Shown: positions 2,401 to 13,557 of the stretch, in pieces
Numbering within the stretch: position 1 is the stretch's first letter
How the letters are laid out: every line of letters begins with the position of its first letter
The notes under the pieces: model-generated
The model's database searches: none
What the model saw: the letters and a program-made list of their open reading frames with translations, nothing else
Told to the model about the DNA's origin: nothing
From: Candidatus Zixiibacteriota bacterium
GTDB lineage: Bacteria > Zixibacteria > MSB-5A5 > UM-FILTER-46-8
Assembly: GCA_026983835.1 (NCBI GenBank)
Contig: JALSTH010000047.1
Span: forward strand, 1-34,708
Reading direction: 5' to 3'
Length of the DNA stretch: 34,708 nucleotides
Made by a program: the position numbers and the translations under genes

Positions 2401-2435
2401 ATCAACGTCCATCTACTCGGGCGTTGATTTTTTTT
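2401..2435 (+). terminator. Intrinsic terminator of the small basic gene
   Basis: A stem of ATCAACG paired with CGTTGAT, extended inside by CC/GG, is followed by eight T residues at 2428-2435. The T run abuts the stop codon of the convergent symporter gene on the other strand. Confidence 0.8.
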
Positions 2436-3834
2436 ACTCCTTTTTTATGTTTAACGACCGGCGATGGTTTTGTTTTCTTAAAAGGCGATCCGCCAAAAAT
2501 ATAATTAGGGAACATCCCAATCCGGGGTAAATCGTATCCACCCCGAACAGCGGTTTGGAGTTTGCGATATATCCCCCAATCATCCATATTACAACCATAC
2601 TTCCGCTCGCAACAATCGATACAAAAGCATAGTTCTTCCGCATTCGCCACTTATCCCCAAAGGAAGCCGACAAAGGTATCAATAAAGCAGCTGTCGATAT
2701 GCTCCCAAAATCATACCATATCTCAACAATCGAGCGCTTGAATATCGCTATCAATATGGCGATACTTCCTGAAATAATAAGACCTATACGGGTTAAAGTG
2801 GTAATATTCCCACCTATTAACTTATGAACAAAATCCTTACCTAATGTTTGCCCGGATATAAAAGTAAAAGTGTCAACTGTGGACATAACGGTGGCGAATA
2901 ATCCCAACAAAAATATTCCCTTAAATAAATCGGGCAGAACTTGAGCCGCCAAAACTTGATAGGATGTAGCCGGATCGGTTAGGTTGGGAACAATCGCTTT
3001 GGCATATAAGCCGGTTGAAGTCGTCATAAAGTCAAAAAGCATCCAAAAACCGATGGAGATAAAAATTCCCTTACGGGCGGTGCTTTCGGATTTGGCGGCG
3101 AAGCACCTCTGGTAAAAGGACGGATCCACCAAAGTCCCCAATGCTATAAAATACCAGACGAGGATATAGCTCAGCGGTTTTCCTCCGGTCAAAGTCAGAT
3201 TCTCGGGAGGAACATTGGAAGCGATAAAATCCAAACCGCCATAATCAACGAACAAATAAGAAACCATTATCCCAAAACCTAAAAACATCAATCCGAATTG
3301 TAATCTATCGGTAATAACATCGGAGCGCAGTCCCCCCGTGAATATATAGAAAACGGAGAAGAAAGCCCCTCCTATAATTCCCCAAACCAACGGAACCCCA
3401 AAAACGGTTTTCGCCAAAAATCCCACCTGCAAAACATAAGCGGCCGGGACTGTAGTGATAAAAACCAACAGAGCCCCGGCAAGAGATGTTTTTCTATCGT
3501 ATGCCTTTTCAAGTTGATCGGGGATAGTATATAGTTTTGTGCGCCTTGCTTTTTTGGCAATGAACAAGGCAAAAAGTATCGCCCCGATATAATACGGCAA
3601 ACCAAACACCACCCAATTTGATAAACCGTGTTTATAAGAATACTCGCCGACACCAAGAATTCCCCCATACCAACTGGAGACTAAGCTGGCGACGAAGCCG
3701 GGCAAGGAAAGCCTCCTGCCCATAACAAGGTATTCATCTACATCCTGCCTTCGAGCGAAAAGCTGGCGGAATCCTATCGCCACCAAAACAGCGAGATATC
3801 CGATAACCAGCGCAATATCAAGCGCGCTGTACAA
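2434..3834 (-). CDS. Sodium:solute symporter (SSS) family transporter, predicted thiamin or thiamin-precursor uptake
   Basis: A 466-residue polytopic inner-membrane protein with about 12-13 hydrophobic segments, typical of the SSS family (LVSSWYGGILGVGEYSYKHG near the N-terminus and LLGLFATVMSTVDTFTF further on). The start is TTG at 3834: an in-frame TAA directly precedes it, and any later start would remove the first membrane helix. It begins three bases after the TonB receptor's stop codon, so translation is probably coupled. Its operon sits behind a TPP riboswitch, so the cargo is inferred to be thiamin or a precursor. SSS-family members under TPP control (the ThiV type) have been predicted as thiamin-related transporters in comparative genomics. 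Family assignment is solid; the substrate is inference from context. Confidence 0.88.
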   Translation of the reverse strand: MYSALDIALVIGYLAVLVAIGFRQLFARRQDVDEYLVMGRRLSLPGFVASLVSSWYGGILGVGEYSYKHGLSNWVVFGLPYYIGAILFALFIAKKARRTKLYTIPDQLEKAYDRKTSLAGALLVFITTVPAAYVLQVGFLAKTVFGVPLVWGIIGGAFFSVFYIFTGGLRSDVITDRLQFGLMFLGFGIMVSYLFVDYGGLDFIASNVPPENLTLTGGKPLSYILVWYFIALGTLVDPSFYQRCFAAKSESTARKGIFISIGFWMLFDFMTTSTGLYAKAIVPNLTDPATSYQVLAAQVLPDLFKGIFLLGLFATVMSTVDTFTFISGQTLGKDFVHKLIGGNITTLTRIGLIISGSIAILIAIFKRSIVEIWYDFGSISTAALLIPLSASFGDKWRMRKNYAFVSIVASGSMVVIWMIGGYIANSKPLFGVDTIYPGLGCSLIIFLADRLLRKQNHRRSLNIKKE

Positions 3835-3837
3835 TTA

Positions 3838-6351
3838 TTACATCTCCAAAGTTAGGCTCGCATAGAAATTCCGCTCAGCACCGACAATATAGCGGGGTAG
3901 ATTATCATCCTCTTCGATATAACCGGAGGCGATATACTCCTTGTCAAACAGGTTGTTGACCCGAAATGCGAATCTCAAGGGAAGCCTTACCAAATTATCA
4001 AGAGCAATATCCGTAGACAAATTAACAATATGATAACCATCCAATTTTGCATCTTCATTCTCCGAATTATCGAGATACTGCCCGCCTACATAGCGGCCGG
4101 AGACAATCAGAGTAAAAGGATAATCCCGGTAGCTGATACTATAATTGGCAAGCATATCCGGAAATCCGCCAATCCTATTCCCGGAACGATCCAACACTAT
4201 CGGCTGCCAATTGTCCCAATCGAAACCATACTCCACATAATCCTCGAATTTGTCATCGTTTATCGAAAGGTTACCGTTGAAGGCAAACCTATGCGTTGTT
4301 TTCAAATTCGCGGAAATCTCAACACCTTGGTGAAGGGTTTTATGAGCGTTGCCGGAGATAGGATAACCATCCTCATCCAATTGCCCAGCATAAGGGATAA
4401 TCTCATCGGTAATCTGCATCCTATAGATATTCAAATCCAAATTAAAATCATTATCGCCCATCTTACCGCTATACGAACCGCCCAATTCGATATCGAGAAG
4501 TTTTTCCGGCTTTAACTCCTTTCCAATAAACTTGTAATGCCCTTCATCCCCAATAAAATTATCAGGCTTATAACCGGGATTAGACCAATAATCGGTTGGG
4601 TCGTAAACATCTTTAAAGGCTGGTTGGCGCTGAGCGGTCGAAAGATTGGCAAATACATTAACTTTTGGCGTCAATTTGAAATTCACGCCTAATCTCGGGG
4701 TAATGAAATCATAATCACGAGTAAAAAATACGCCGAACCGCTTATCATCCGTCAGCCTATAATGTTGGCGCCGATACTGTAAATCCAACATCCCGATAAT
4801 ATTTTCCGCCAAATTGTAATCCAAATGACTAAAAGCCGTAAATGAATTACTTATCCCCACATAATCATAATATCGAACTTCGGGGGATAAATCGGAAGGA
4901 TACTCAGCCGCCCATCGGACCTCACCATAATGCCTCCCCCGATGAAGTCTCATTTCACCGCCGACTGTCAACTTCGCTTTTCCCATCTTGCAGGCTATAT
5001 TAGGTATCCATCCCCAATCGTATTCATCAACGGTTCGACGCCTGATTAAATCCGTTTTCTTAAGGCGATATAAACCTGTCGTTGAATCGGGAATCGGATT
5101 TCCATTATTATCAACATCCTCGTAATAACCAGATGGAAATTCATCAGGTGAGCCGACCCAGACTTCGCCCAAATTGTATTCCTCGATATATTTCCCCTTT
5201 CGGGATTGGTCGTAATAGCCATCGCCGCTAAAATAATAAAGCGTGTTCGCTAAATTTAAATTGTCATTTAAACCGATATTATGTAAAATCTCATAATGGG
5301 GCTGATTAAAATGATCAGTTTCGCCGTCCCATTGGAGCGGATTATACCTTCTATCGATAGATAATTGTTCTTTAGTAATTCCCTTATAAGCCAAATGCGA
5401 TTTCTCCGGACCTCCATATAAATTTATTTTCAGAGATGATTTTTCGCCATATCGAGCCATACCGAAGAAATAAGCCCACATATCCGACCAAGAATTTTCG
5501 CGATATCCGTCAGTATGTAATTTGGAGAATCGTCCATAAAATACAAAGTTATCCTTAATCAATCCCGAATTCCCCGAAAATGTTAATTTGCGGGTATTAT
5601 AACTTCCGTATCCCGAAACTATTTTGAATTTCGGGAAAGGGGAATATTCCGACGAGATTAAATTAACCGACCCTCCCATCGCCGAGGCGCCATATAATGA
5701 ATTTCCCACTCCTCTTTGAATTTGAATATCCTCAATACTTTCGCTGAAATCCGGCAAGTCTATCCAATACACTTCGCTCGATTCCGCATCGTTTAAGGGA
5801 ATCCCATTAAGCATTACCGCAATCCTTTTTTGATCGAAGCCCCGCATTTTCAAATATGAATAACCTATACCATTTCCGGCATCGGAATATGCATAGAGGT
5901 TCGGGGTTTCCATTAACAGCATCGGCGTATCCTGCGCCCAATACCGTTGATCGATTTGCTTTCGGGTAATATTGGAAAAGGCAACAGGAGTTTCACCGCG
6001 GGATGCTCTGGTTAGAGTTACTACCACCCCCTGTCCCTTTAACAACCTGGGCTCCAATTTGAGAACGAGATAATCCGTTTTCGAAGCATCGACTTTTTTA
6101 TAAGCAATCCCATAGCCGATCACCTTAAGAATTAAAGTCTGTTCGCCGAGCGGGAAATCCCTAATATTGAACTTTCCATCCATATCGGTAATTACCGTTA
6201 TATTCGTTCCCTTAACACTAATGGCTACCCCCCCCAATGCTTCCCCGTTATCCTTGCTAATTATAACCCCCTTAAGTTCTACCCCAAAAGCAGTGCCGCA
6301 AAGCATTAGCATTGTAAACAAAAGCAACAACGATATTTTTCTTGAAGACAT
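3838..6351 (-). CDS. TonB-dependent outer-membrane receptor, TPP-riboswitch controlled
   Basis: An 837-residue outer-membrane receptor. Order of parts: a signal peptide (hydrophobic LLLLFTMLMLCGTAFG, cleavage near residue 23); a carboxypeptidase-regulatory-like beta-sandwich at about 24-100 (GVIISKDNGEALGGVAI, DMDGKFNI); a plug domain at about 110-230 (KMRGFDQKRIAVMLNGIPLND, then GVGNSLYGASAMGGSVNL); and a 22-stranded-type beta barrel to the end, with the usual FRVNNLFDKEY motif near the C-terminus. ATG at 6351 has the Shine-Dalgarno GGAGGT six bases upstream. It is the first gene after a TPP riboswitch and is followed at once by the SSS symporter, so it probably takes thiamin, a phosphate ester or a precursor across the outer membrane using TonB energy. 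The ligand is inferred from regulation only. Confidence 0.92.
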   Translation of the reverse strand: MSSRKISLLLLFTMLMLCGTAFGVELKGVIISKDNGEALGGVAISVKGTNITVITDMDGKFNIRDFPLGEQTLILKVIGYGIAYKKVDASKTDYLVLKLEPRLLKGQGVVVTLTRASRGETPVAFSNITRKQIDQRYWAQDTPMLLMETPNLYAYSDAGNGIGYSYLKMRGFDQKRIAVMLNGIPLNDAESSEVYWIDLPDFSESIEDIQIQRGVGNSLYGASAMGGSVNLISSEYSPFPKFKIVSGYGSYNTRKLTFSGNSGLIKDNFVFYGRFSKLHTDGYRENSWSDMWAYFFGMARYGEKSSLKINLYGGPEKSHLAYKGITKEQLSIDRRYNPLQWDGETDHFNQPHYEILHNIGLNDNLNLANTLYYFSGDGYYDQSRKGKYIEEYNLGEVWVGSPDEFPSGYYEDVDNNGNPIPDSTTGLYRLKKTDLIRRRTVDEYDWGWIPNIACKMGKAKLTVGGEMRLHRGRHYGEVRWAAEYPSDLSPEVRYYDYVGISNSFTAFSHLDYNLAENIIGMLDLQYRRQHYRLTDDKRFGVFFTRDYDFITPRLGVNFKLTPKVNVFANLSTAQRQPAFKDVYDPTDYWSNPGYKPDNFIGDEGHYKFIGKELKPEKLLDIELGGSYSGKMGDNDFNLDLNIYRMQITDEIIPYAGQLDEDGYPISGNAHKTLHQGVEISANLKTTHRFAFNGNLSINDDKFEDYVEYGFDWDNWQPIVLDRSGNRIGGFPDMLANYSISYRDYPFTLIVSGRYVGGQYLDNSENEDAKLDGYHIVNLSTDIALDNLVRLPLRFAFRVNNLFDKEYIASGYIEEDDNLPRYIVGAERNFYASLTLEM

Positions 6352-6372
6352 TTATAACCTCCGTGCAGAAAT

Positions 6373-6398
6373 AAAAAAGCCTCCCAGCGAGCAGAAGG
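6373..6398 (-). terminator. Probable riboswitch expression platform: attenuator hairpin
   Basis: Read on the minus strand, CCTTCTG can pair with TGGGAGG (7 pairs including G-U, loop CTCGC), followed by C and six T residues. It lies between the TPP aptamer and the receptor start, where a regulatory terminator would sit. The stem is modest, so this is a proposal. Confidence 0.5.
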
Positions 6399-6420
6399 TG
6401 GTTAAAAACAAGGAAACCAT

Positions 6421-6506
6421 CTTTCCCTACGCTGGCATTATCCAGATCAGGTTCCAAGGGTGTATTCTCAGGCTCGCAACCTGTAAGAGGATGCGAACCA
6501 CCCCAT
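6421..6506 (-). ncRNA. TPP (thiamin pyrophosphate) riboswitch, THI element
   Basis: The minus strand carries the THI-box core: GGGGTGG at the 5' side, CTGAGA (6471-6466), ACACCC closing the first arm, then ACCTGATCTGGATAATGCC and AGCGTAGGGAA. The variable P3 arm forms an 8-bp helix (GGTTCGCA with TGCGAGCC). These are the conserved bases that bind the pyrimidine and pyrophosphate ends of TPP. By established knowledge TPP binding turns expression off. The aptamer starts about 10 bases after the predicted transcription start and controls the TonB receptor and SSS symporter genes. Confidence 0.95.
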
Positions 6507-6521
6507 TTTATCTTATAGGAA

Positions 6522-6549
6522 AATATACTATTTCCTCACAGATTGTCAA
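6522..6549 (-). promoter_or_regulatory. Promoter of the TPP-regulated transport operon
   Basis: On the minus strand TTGACA (6549-6544), a 16-base spacer and TATATT (6527-6522) lie just upstream of the riboswitch. The same bases also fit the Bacteroidetes-type TTG-N19-TAnnTTT pattern (TATATTTT). The rest of the 361-base gap 6352-6712 holds the riboswitch, its attenuator, a small palindrome ACCAT-AATA-ATGGT near 6614-6627, and the Shine-Dalgarno of the next gene. Confidence 0.75.
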
Positions 6550-6712: not shown

Positions 6713-9700
6713 TTGAAAGATTTTAAGAAAATTCCCCTAATTCGCTGTTCCACAAACGAGAAAAAACACTTTCCCTTCAAGCTTGGATTATCAATGCTAA
6801 TAATTCTATTGTTTGGGATCAATATTGGGTTAACCTACGGAAACCCCAACAAATTCAATGGAAACAATACAAAAACTCCGATTGTGCACCCTGAAAATGT
6901 TATGAATAATAAGCTTGCACAAAATGAATCATTTGATAAGTGGCGAGGCAATGTTCATTATGACCCTTGTACCCCAAGTGATACTATCCCCGAAAGGTTC
7001 GATTGGCGTGAACATAATGGGTGTACTCCTGTGAAAAACCAAATTGTTAATGGTATCTTCTGCGGAAGTTGTTGGGCATTTGCTATAATGGGAGCGATGG
7101 AAAGCGCTATCCTCATCGCTGATGGAGATACTGTGGATCTATCGGAACAATGGTTGGTCAGTTGCACCGATGCGGGCGATTGCGGCGGATGGAATGGGTG
7201 GTATGGTGCAGCCTTCAACTATTTGTTGCAGGATGGAGAGCCTGACTACTGCGGCGAAAGCGGTGCAGTGATGGAGGAAAGTTTTCCATATGAAGGATTG
7301 AATGTCCCCTGCGGATGCCCATACCCACACCCATACCATATCGATTCGTGGTCGTTTATTGGAAATGAAGGCGAAATTCCGTCGGTAGAACAGATTAAGC
7401 AAGCTATATTGGATCACGGCCCAATTACTTGCAGGGTAGTCTGGAATGACGCTTTCTATCATTATACGGGGGGAATTTTCGATGGCTGCGAGAATGGATA
7501 TTGTAACCATTCCGTTGTTTTAGTTGGATGGGATGATAATCAAGGAGAAAATGGGGTTTGGTTTCTGCGAAACGCATTGGGTCCTGATTGGGGTGAAGAT
7601 GGTTATATGCGAATCGAATACGGATGTTCTAATGTCGGTCTCGATGCTTGTTATGTAGAATACTCGCCGCGAACCGGTTTGGTTGTGTCTCCATTTAACA
7701 ACTTCGAATCAGAGGGACCTATGGGTGGTCCATTTGATCCAAACGAAATGGTATATAGGATAAAAAATATAAATGAAACGGGTATCGCCTATAGTATAAC
7801 TAATTCCCAATCGTGGGTAAGTATCTCAGACCCGAACGGTTATCTTGAGGGCGGCGATTCGTTGGATGTAATTATTTCAATAAATTCCAATGCTAATTCT
7901 ATGGGGAATGGAAACTACGCTGATACTATCAACTTCATAAACGAAACTGATCATCAAGGAGATACGCAAAGAGCGGTCAACCTGAGAATTGGTGTTGGAG
8001 TAATCTATGAATGGTCTATGGATACTGATCCGGGCTGGACAACTGAGGGCGATTGGGGATATGGACAACCTGTCGGGCAAGGCGGAGAACATGGGTTTCC
8101 TGACCCTACAAGCGGTTACACAGGACAAAATGTTTATGGCTATAATTTGAATGGGGATTATGATAATAATCTGCCAGAGATGTTCCTTACCAGCCAGCCT
8201 ATAGACTGTTCCGAACTTTCCAATACCGAATTAAGGTTTTGGAGGTGGTTAGGAGTAGAACAACCTCTATACGACCACGCTCGGATAGAGGTCAGCAACG
8301 ATAACTTGAACTGGACTACCATTTGGGAAAACAACAGTACAATAACCGATAGCGAATGGCAGAAATTCGACTACGACATTTCTGAAGTAGCCGATGGACA
8401 GCCCACCGTATTTCTGCGCTGGACTATGGGACCTACGGATAATTCTTGGCGATTCTGTGGATGGAATATCGATGATGTGCAAATAGTTGCAATAGATAAT
8501 TCTCAGCTTTTATCATTCACCTATCCTTACGGCCTCCCCGAATACATCAATCCGGAAGGTGGCACAACATTTCGAGTGATAGTGAATGGAGTTTCAGGCG
8601 ATCCTGCACCGGGGACAGGAGTTTTACATTATGATGATGGTTCGGGGTATGTCGAAATCCCAATGTCCGTAGTGGCACCTAATGTTTATGATGCAATATT
8701 TCCTGCATTCGATTGCGGAGACGAAATTCATTACTATATCACGGCGGAAACAGAAGACGGGATTATTGTAACCGATCCTTATAGCGCACCATTAAATTCT
8801 TATTCGGCTATCAGTGCAACAGGTTTCGTAGTCCTCTATGAGGATGATTTTTCTACGAATGAAGGTTGGACTGGATTAGGAGGTGACGCTGAATGGACTA
8901 TTGGTCCCGCAACCGGTGGTAGTGGTAACGATCAATATGGCGGACCGGACCCCGCAGAAGACCATTCCCCTTCTTCCGATAATTATGTTTTAGGGAATGA
9001 CTTAACTCCTGATTCGGGCGGAGATTATTCACCAAATATAGATACAACATATTGGATAACTTCCCCCGTTATCGATTGTTCCGATTATATAAATGTAAAC
9101 ATAAAGTTCTTCCGCTGGCTCGGGGTTGAACAAAACATTTATGACCACGCCTACATACAAGGCTATAATGGTTCATCCTGGGTGGATTTATTCGAGAATG
9201 GTTCCACAACTATTGATGAGAATGAGTGGAATCAAATATCATTTGATGTCTCATCAATAGCTAATGGAAATCCTGATTTTCAAATACGCTTTGGGTTGGG
9301 ACCGACTGACGGATCTTGGCAATACTGTGGATGGAATATTGACGATTTATCAATTACAGCTTATTCCTGTGCGCCTGATACAACAAACTTGACAATAAAA
9401 ATGATTCCCGATAATCCCCCAGTGGAGGTACCTCAAGGTGGTTCATTTACTTTTACGGGAATCCTTATCAATAGCGATGATACTCCGAAAACAGTCGATG
9501 TTTGGATAAATCTGGATGTCCCCGATTACGGCCCATATGGCCCCATACATAAATATGGGGGCATAACAATAAACCCCAATGACACTCTCAACTATGAAGA
9601 TATAACTCAGGATATACCGGGGAATGCGCCATTGGGTCTATATAAATACTTAGCGTATTGCGGCAACTACCCCTCGATTATTATAGATTCCGCTTGGTTT

Positions 9701-10048
9701 GAGTTTAACGTTATTCCCGGAACGGGGGGTAAAGCTGAAGACTGGAATCTTTCCGGCTGGTTTAACGAATCAGCGGAAGTACCGCTGGAAACAAACCTAT
9801 TCGATAATTATCCAAATCCATTTAACTCCTCTACAACTTTTAATTATTCTCTTTCCCAAAATGCGAATGTAGTGCTGGAAATTTATAATCTTTTGGGTAG
9901 GAAAATAGCGACTTTAGTAGATGGTTATCAACAGGCAGGATATAAAACTGTAAGGTGGAATGCCAAAGGTCTTGCTTCCGGTGTTTATTTTTATAGGCTA
10001 AAAACCGATGAGAAAATAATAACCAAACGAGCAATGCTCCTAAAATAG
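6713..10048 (+). CDS. Secreted papain-family (C1) cysteine protease with type IX sorting domain
   Basis: A 1111-residue secreted protease. The start is TTG at 6713, with GGAGG at 6704-6708 upstream; the hydrophobic signal segment is at about 25-42. The C1A papain domain spans about 92-320: CGSCWAF with the nucleophile Cys120, NHSVVLVGWDD with the catalytic His, and LRNALGPDWGEDGYMRI with the catalytic Asn region (the usual NSWG is NALG here). Next come an Ig-like BACON-type segment and two copies of a MAM/jellyroll-like module (about 445-595 and 715-885) sharing RWLGVEQ..YDHA and WRFCGWNIDD / WQYCGWNIDD. A CARDB-like segment and a C-terminal type IX sorting domain (NYPNPFNSST to ITKRAMLLK) follow. 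It probably degrades extracellular protein, with the repeated modules binding substrate or surface. Confidence 0.9.
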   Translation: MKDFKKIPLIRCSTNEKKHFPFKLGLSMLIILLFGINIGLTYGNPNKFNGNNTKTPIVHPENVMNNKLAQNESFDKWRGNVHYDPCTPSDTIPERFDWREHNGCTPVKNQIVNGIFCGSCWAFAIMGAMESAILIADGDTVDLSEQWLVSCTDAGDCGGWNGWYGAAFNYLLQDGEPDYCGESGAVMEESFPYEGLNVPCGCPYPHPYHIDSWSFIGNEGEIPSVEQIKQAILDHGPITCRVVWNDAFYHYTGGIFDGCENGYCNHSVVLVGWDDNQGENGVWFLRNALGPDWGEDGYMRIEYGCSNVGLDACYVEYSPRTGLVVSPFNNFESEGPMGGPFDPNEMVYRIKNINETGIAYSITNSQSWVSISDPNGYLEGGDSLDVIISINSNANSMGNGNYADTINFINETDHQGDTQRAVNLRIGVGVIYEWSMDTDPGWTTEGDWGYGQPVGQGGEHGFPDPTSGYTGQNVYGYNLNGDYDNNLPEMFLTSQPIDCSELSNTELRFWRWLGVEQPLYDHARIEVSNDNLNWTTIWENNSTITDSEWQKFDYDISEVADGQPTVFLRWTMGPTDNSWRFCGWNIDDVQIVAIDNSQLLSFTYPYGLPEYINPEGGTTFRVIVNGVSGDPAPGTGVLHYDDGSGYVEIPMSVVAPNVYDAIFPAFDCGDEIHYYITAETEDGIIVTDPYSAPLNSYSAISATGFVVLYEDDFSTNEGWTGLGGDAEWTIGPATGGSGNDQYGGPDPAEDHSPSSDNYVLGNDLTPDSGGDYSPNIDTTYWITSPVIDCSDYINVNIKFFRWLGVEQNIYDHAYIQGYNGSSWVDLFENGSTTIDENEWNQISFDVSSIANGNPDFQIRFGLGPTDGSWQYCGWNIDDLSITAYSCAPDTTNLTIKMIPDNPPVEVPQGGSFTFTGILINSDDTPKTVDVWINLDVPDYGPYGPIHKYGGITINPNDTLNYEDITQDIPGNAPLGLYKYLAYCGNYPSIIIDSAWFEFNVIPGTGGKAEDWNLSGWFNESAEVPLETNLFDNYPNPFNSSTTFNYSLSQNANVVLEIYNLLGRKIATLVDGYQQAGYKTVRWNAKGLASGVYFYRLKTDEKIITKRAMLLK

Positions 10049-12842: not shown

Positions 12843-12866
12843 TTGAATGATAAAGCGCTCATTCAA
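12843..12866. repeat. Inverted repeat at the 3' end of the bshB1-like gene
   Basis: TTGAATGA and TCATTCAA (8 perfect pairs, 8-base spacer) overlap the stop codon of the deacetylase gene. No T run follows, so it is a possible 3'-end stabilising hairpin rather than a classical terminator. Confidence 0.4.
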
Positions 12867-13557
12867 TTAAGCAGAATAAATTCTCAATCTTCATAGGCTC
12901 GCCTATGGAGAATCCCTGCCCGTATTTAACCCCGATATGATTGCCATAACCTCTCACCATAGACTCCAAAAACCACAAATAATCGTATTGCTTCGCCGGG
13001 TTTTGGAATTGTGATTTGTGTGCTTTGACCGCTTCTGTCCATATATCGAACTCATCCGTAATATCCACCACAAATGTGGGAGGGACTTCGGTTGGCAAGA
13101 GATAATGAAATATTGCGCTTACTTGATATGGCTCGCCTTGAATCGGCAATTTTTTCAGCATAGCATAATTTGCGGCATTTACCACAATTTTGCCAGCAGC
13201 CAAATGGTCCGGATGGCTTTGCTTTTTCCCGTGTCCCCCCCTCGGATATGGAGCAAGGATTACTCTCGGCTTGAATTTACGGATTAATTCGGCAATTTTT
13301 AATCTATATTTATAATTATCCTCAAGCCTGCAATCACCAAAATCCAAATCCACCACCAAATCAACACCCAAAATCTTAGCCGCTCTTACAGCTTCTTTCT
13401 TACGGAGTTCCGGAAAGCCTCCTGTTCCCATCTCTCCTTGAGTTAAATAAATAATGCCGGTCGAGTATCCCAATTTCTTCATCTTTACCAGAACGCCTCC
13501 GGTCCCGACTTCAGCATCATCAGGGTGTGCGCCGATAGAGATTATGTCAACTTCCAT
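12859..13557 (-). CDS. bshB1: PIG-L/LmbE-family deacetylase, BshB1-like (bacillithiol biosynthesis)
   Basis: A 232-residue zinc-dependent N-acetylglucosamine deacetylase. The zinc/catalytic motif AHPDD is at 10-14 and the second metal motif HPDH at 115-118. The LTQGEMGTGG stretch and the C-terminal YGNHIGVKYGQGFSIGEP are characteristic of the BshB1 branch, which removes the acetyl group from GlcNAc-malate to give GlcN-malate, the second step to bacillithiol. It is cytosolic, with no signal peptide. ATG at 13557 is preceded by GGAG. Small differences from the usual BshB1 (an insertion GGHGKKQ before HPDH) leave room for a related sugar deacetylase. No bshA or bshC is in the window. Confidence 0.8.
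   Translation of the reverse strand: MEVDIISIGAHPDDAEVGTGGVLVKMKKLGYSTGIIYLTQGEMGTGGFPELRKKEAVRAAKILGVDLVVDLDFGDCRLEDNYKYRLKIAELIRKFKPRVILAPYPRGGHGKKQSHPDHLAAGKIVVNAANYAMLKKLPIQGEPYQVSAIFHYLLPTEVPPTFVVDITDEFDIWTEAVKAHKSQFQNPAKQYDYLWFLESMVRGYGNHIGVKYGQGFSIGEPMKIENLFCLIE

Follow-up and report, generated by a model that had tools for sequence, protein, structure and literature searches.

Among the described systems close to the locus reported here, OMthi and PnuT of Bacteroides thetaiotaomicron have been studied by gene deletion, and mutants without biosynthesis and either transporter were outcompeted at low thiamin (PMC5613172). In Caldithrix abyssi, a locus comprising a TPP riboswitch, a TonB receptor, a sodium:solute symporter, and TPK (Cabys_3975-3977) was reported in 2017, and its receptor was compared to BT2390 (PMC5317091). 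Besides the Caldithrix locus, no description of a TonB receptor and a sodium:solute symporter (SSS) together with a TPP riboswitch was found in the literature searched. The module is already known from C. abyssi, which belongs to another phylum, and the present locus is a further case.

This locus occupies the minus strand at positions 2434–6549 of the window, i.e., the whole stretch of 34,708 nucleotides that was analysed, from a Candidatus Zixiibacteriota bacterium. It very probably belongs to a vitamin B1 auxotroph and forms an operon, repressed by TPP, through which intact thiamin or thiamin phosphate is imported. The preliminary description had placed a promoter, a riboswitch, a receptor, and an SSS symporter in one operon, and this arrangement was confirmed by a near-consensus promoter, a match to RF00059, and Pfam matches. 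The promoter (6522–6549, minus strand) is of the sigma-70 type, TTGACA-16-TATATT, with 11 of 12 matches, and is the top site of the region. Since the region holds 14 promoter-like sites in total, close to the 12.7 obtained from shuffles, the promoter call rests on the quality and position of this site. The TPP riboswitch aptamer, or THI element (6406–6515, minus strand), comes next. In a covariance-model search, it scored 58.5 bits against the RF00059 gathering cut-off of 54.3 (E 3.6e-9) over the full model (positions 1–105), and it is the sole TPP match in the 2.53 Mb draft genome, which is 94.7% complete. The THI element had been called complete, which holds for its conserved core and fails for the P1 helix: four of its five pairs are non-standard, and the helix is not formed by standard pairs. 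P1 is a usual, not a defining, part of the TPP riboswitch (RF00059), and the aptamer was filed as TPP despite the missing P1 because of its score and conserved core. A short P1 likewise occurs in G003, G012, G019, G031, and G048, all near relatives; the other aptamers parsed mostly have 4–7 P1 pairs (41 aptamers were parsed by script and the rest left unparsed). Aptamers without or nearly without P1 are those of the window (6406–6515) and of L086, L087, L095, L089, and L205, which represent the window family and nearby Zixibacteria families, and intrinsic terminators come after them nonetheless. Tandem TPP riboswitches on one strand were seen in G070, G074, G088, and G092 and at L151:3305-3567; these pairs precede the same import module wherever the module position on the contig is known.

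An intrinsic terminator (6372–6398, minus strand) is located between the aptamer and the receptor start. Its stem, CCTTCT...GGGAGG (6398–6380), is followed by CTTTTTT. It is probably a transcription attenuator, such as had been proposed as a possibility. Six relatives (G003, G012, G019, G031, G048, and G057) also have terminators at the equivalent place past the aptamer; their sequences differ, which supports attenuation by termination as the likely mode of control. A candidate antiterminator, a 9-bp match between GGGGUGGUU and AACCACCUU found by eye and by script, was rejected, being equalled in 466 of 2000 shuffles. Antiterminator duplex energies in eight leaders were no better than those of shuffles, and the value for the window genome (G000) reflects an earlier T run, not the terminator.

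The first gene of the operon (3838–6351, minus strand) encodes a TonB-dependent outer-membrane receptor of 837 aa. Pfam matches to PF00593 (1.4e-28), PF07715 (1.6e-15), and PF13715 (1.1e-14) were obtained, and the protein has plug and β-barrel domains preceded by an N-terminal CarboxypepD_reg-like domain. It shows length-wide homology (29% identity, E 2e-105) to the receptor of the TPP-receptor-PnuC-TPK operon of Bacteroides finegoldii. In the same comparison, BtuB and CirA gave no match, and FhuA, FepA, and SusC gave E values of 0.01 or worse. The plug/barrel architecture, the full-length homology, and the TPP riboswitch directly upstream all agree with membership in the OMthi family.

The second gene (2434–3834, minus strand) encodes a sodium:solute symporter of the SSS family (466 aa; PF00474, 7.3e-32). 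The coupled TTG start assigned to it earlier stands: the receptor stop codon TAA (3840–3838) is followed by another TAA and then by the symporter TTG at 3834, which begins 3 nt past the receptor stop, and a likely ribosome-binding site, GGAG (3843–3847, minus strand), lies inside the receptor gene end, 9 nt before the TTG. Just 3′ of the operon, a hairpin (2400–2429; strand not assigned, T run on the plus strand) is a possible two-way terminator. On either side of the operon (49–1821 and 6713–10048) lie genes for peptidases of the C25 and papain (C1) families that carry sorting tails for type IX secretion. Farther along the window, a protein encoded at 12859–13557 scores above the threshold set for BshB1, a bacillithiol deacetylase, and this suggests that the lineage may make bacillithiol.

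The symporter is 68% identical to that of its nearest named relative, a candidate division Zixibacteria genome. It falls below the curated NCBIfam cut-offs for both PutP (89.5 vs 515.5 bits) and PanF (84.2 vs 328 bits). A phylogeny against these two proteins, which had been called for, placed the module symporters in one clade (99% SH-aLRT) separate from PutP and PanF. With its SSS-family assignment and TPP-riboswitch control, the symporter agrees with the description of ThiV/SSSP. Thiamin is a cation, and HMP and HET are neutral. By profile, the closest solved relatives of the symporter are choline transporters. In CHT1, the choline site includes W62, Y91, and E73 (PMC11589582). These positions align with W55, Y81, and E64 of the symporter, which are conserved in 77–78 of 78 module symporters, whereas two other cage positions of CHT1 differ (W141 is P130, and W254 is D/E237). 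The partial retention of CHT1-type residues would suit a cationic cargo.

Symporter orthologs were identified in 70 of 98 related genomes with at least 41% identity; paralogs are far less similar (25–30%). In 55 of the 59 ortholog genomes of this set that were compared for position, a TPP riboswitch lies 2.4–3.3 kb upstream of the symporter on the same strand, a gap that leaves room for one receptor gene. The riboswitch, the receptor, and the symporter occur together at 52 of 58 informative loci, a count that ignores kinship; the informative loci are those of the 80 named loci with enough upstream DNA. The triad loci span Zixibacteria, KSB1, Ignavibacteria, Calditrichaeota, Eisenbacteria, and other members of the FCB group. 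TPK is inserted between the receptor and the symporter at 14 loci in several phyla, and at the KSB1 locus L107, ThiL lies in the operon under the same TPP riboswitch, in a genome without TPK. Three Eisenbacteria loci (L148, L160, and L171) have the reversed order, symporter before receptor, still under a TPP riboswitch. Very long GC-rich ORFs at these three loci had the appearance of symporter-receptor fusions, but the symporter part proved to be out of frame on translation. A locus on a Persicobacter plasmid (L188), in which an SSS gene is located 2.7 kb past a TPP-receptor pair, was left uncounted as its protein is only a 26.7% match outside the module clade. TPK adjoins the symporter on the opposite strand at L087 (G012), L088 (G057), and L089 (G031), and at L073 (G008) it follows immediately on the same strand.

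In the six remaining informative relatives, the symporter is placed apart from the riboswitch; five of these six genomes have a TPP riboswitch before a receptor of the same family at another locus. This separation, together with the diversity of SSS substrates, would fit a receptor that brings in thiamin and a symporter with a different substrate that came to be in the same operon by coincidence. Such a chance association is very unlikely, given that the symporter adjoins the receptor in nearly all relatives, that in several phyla the TPK gene has been placed between them, that the pair stays under TPP control even in reversed order, and that PnuT/PnuC was not found in the 94.7% complete draft of the window genome. 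The unlinked symporters do count against the main reading, as do the aptamer without P1 and the lack of an antiterminator above shuffle level. Rather than a symporter firmly within a clade of different known substrate whose relatives lack TPP regulation, the opposite was found, and both the triad count and a receptor homologous to OMthi support the reading of the locus as a vitamin B1 uptake module.

The thiamin genes of the genome were checked as the preliminary description had advised. ThiC, ThiD, TPK, and PnuT/PnuC were not found in the draft, the top match for ThiD reaching 20.6 bits where the cut-off is 205; since the draft is 94.7% complete, a gene that is apparently missing may be unsequenced. 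A divergent ThiE/TenI-like gene (L082:4932-5555, contig 19) reaches 98 bits against the thiE cut-off of 145. Its neighbours encode an IscR-like regulator, a NifS-type cysteine desulfurase, and MnmA, which are not thiamin genes. A good match to ThiL is present away from the window locus. Among the genomes compared, ThiC occurs in none of the 70 with the module and in 19 of the 28 without it (shared ancestry is not corrected for), and a good ThiE occurs in 1 of the 70. This gene content, from which nearly all of the B1 biosynthetic genes have apparently been lost, speaks for vitamin B1 auxotrophy.

A module for import of HMP or of the thiazole HET, both precursors, instead of intact thiamin would resemble the TPP-controlled SSS protein ThiV of SAR11, which is linked to HMP uptake (PMC11452348), and the divergent ThiE-like gene might be taken to serve it. 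This reading is very unlikely. With ThiC, ThiD, TPK, and PnuT/PnuC missing and the ThiE match poor, neither HMP nor HET is likely to be the cargo, and the organism itself can probably make use of neither one. Moreover, TPK, which acts on whole thiamin, sits in the operon of many relatives, and the conserved aromatic and acidic positions of the symporter suit a cation, not the neutral HMP or HET. The missing ThiC, ThiD, and good ThiE, combined with the co-operonic TPK of many relatives, favour intact thiamin or its monophosphate. The cargo had been left open; the evidence narrows it towards these two forms.

The last step differs among the genomes that share the module. TPK is present in 53 of the 70 and ThiL above its cut-off in 10; none has both, and seven have neither. 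This distribution suggests that thiamin monophosphate could be the main cargo of the ThiL-only lineages, including the window genome, with ThiL converting it directly to TPP. The window genome, in which ThiL is present and TPK was not found, and locus L107 would both fit such an import. We nevertheless regard it as unlikely, since an unrecognised thiamin kinase would do equally well, the seven genomes with neither enzyme are left aside by it, and the occurrence of the same symporter clade in TPK lineages would require a switch of cargo within the clade. For the ThiL group, the choice is between import of the monophosphate and a thiamin kinase that has escaped recognition. The stricter proposition, that in ThiL-only lineages the symporter imports thiamin monophosphate directly under a TPP riboswitch working without P1, appears improbable; if true, a sodium symporter would here be carrying a vitamin in phosphorylated form. 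For the main reading, intact thiamin or thiamin phosphate as the cargo, the missing TPK is a point against, as it leaves the conversion of thiamin to the monophosphate unexplained if the cargo is plain thiamin.

On the main reading, the operon would work as follows. At low TPP, transcription would pass through the leader and both genes would be expressed. The TonB-dependent receptor would then carry the vitamin over the outer membrane, and the symporter, presumably coupled to Na+, would carry it over the inner membrane. Once TPP is bound to the aptamer, the leader transcript would stop at the intrinsic terminator. ThiL is proposed for the final step in this organism, turning thiamin monophosphate into TPP, because TPK was not found. 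The module is a likely B1 import route for a large set of uncultured phyla without ThiC. It also identifies a distinct SSS clade whose cargo is open to direct assay, and the split between TPK and ThiL among genomes with the same module should make it possible to test clearly whether the imported form is thiamin or the monophosphate.

The locus shares with the Bacteroidetes OMthi-PnuT-Tnr3 operon (BT2390, BT2396-2397) a TPP riboswitch, a homologous receptor, and uptake over two membranes (PMC5613172). Yet, the inner-membrane step is assigned to PnuT in Bacteroidetes and to an SSS protein in the window. ThiV/SSSP of SAR11, Methylobacillus, and algae resemble the symporter in their SSS family, TPP-riboswitch control, and link to B1 vitamers, a likeness at the level of description; in the parts of the sources consulted, no TonB receptor partner is described for ThiV/SSSP, and the SAR11 cargo is HMP (PMC11452348, PMC4260697). 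The Caldithrix abyssi locus is similar in its regulatory RNA, receptor family, sodium:solute symporter, and proposed role (PMC5317091). The difference lies in the kinase: TPK belongs to the Cabys locus, whereas the window and its nearest relatives are without TPK and have ThiL elsewhere in the genome.
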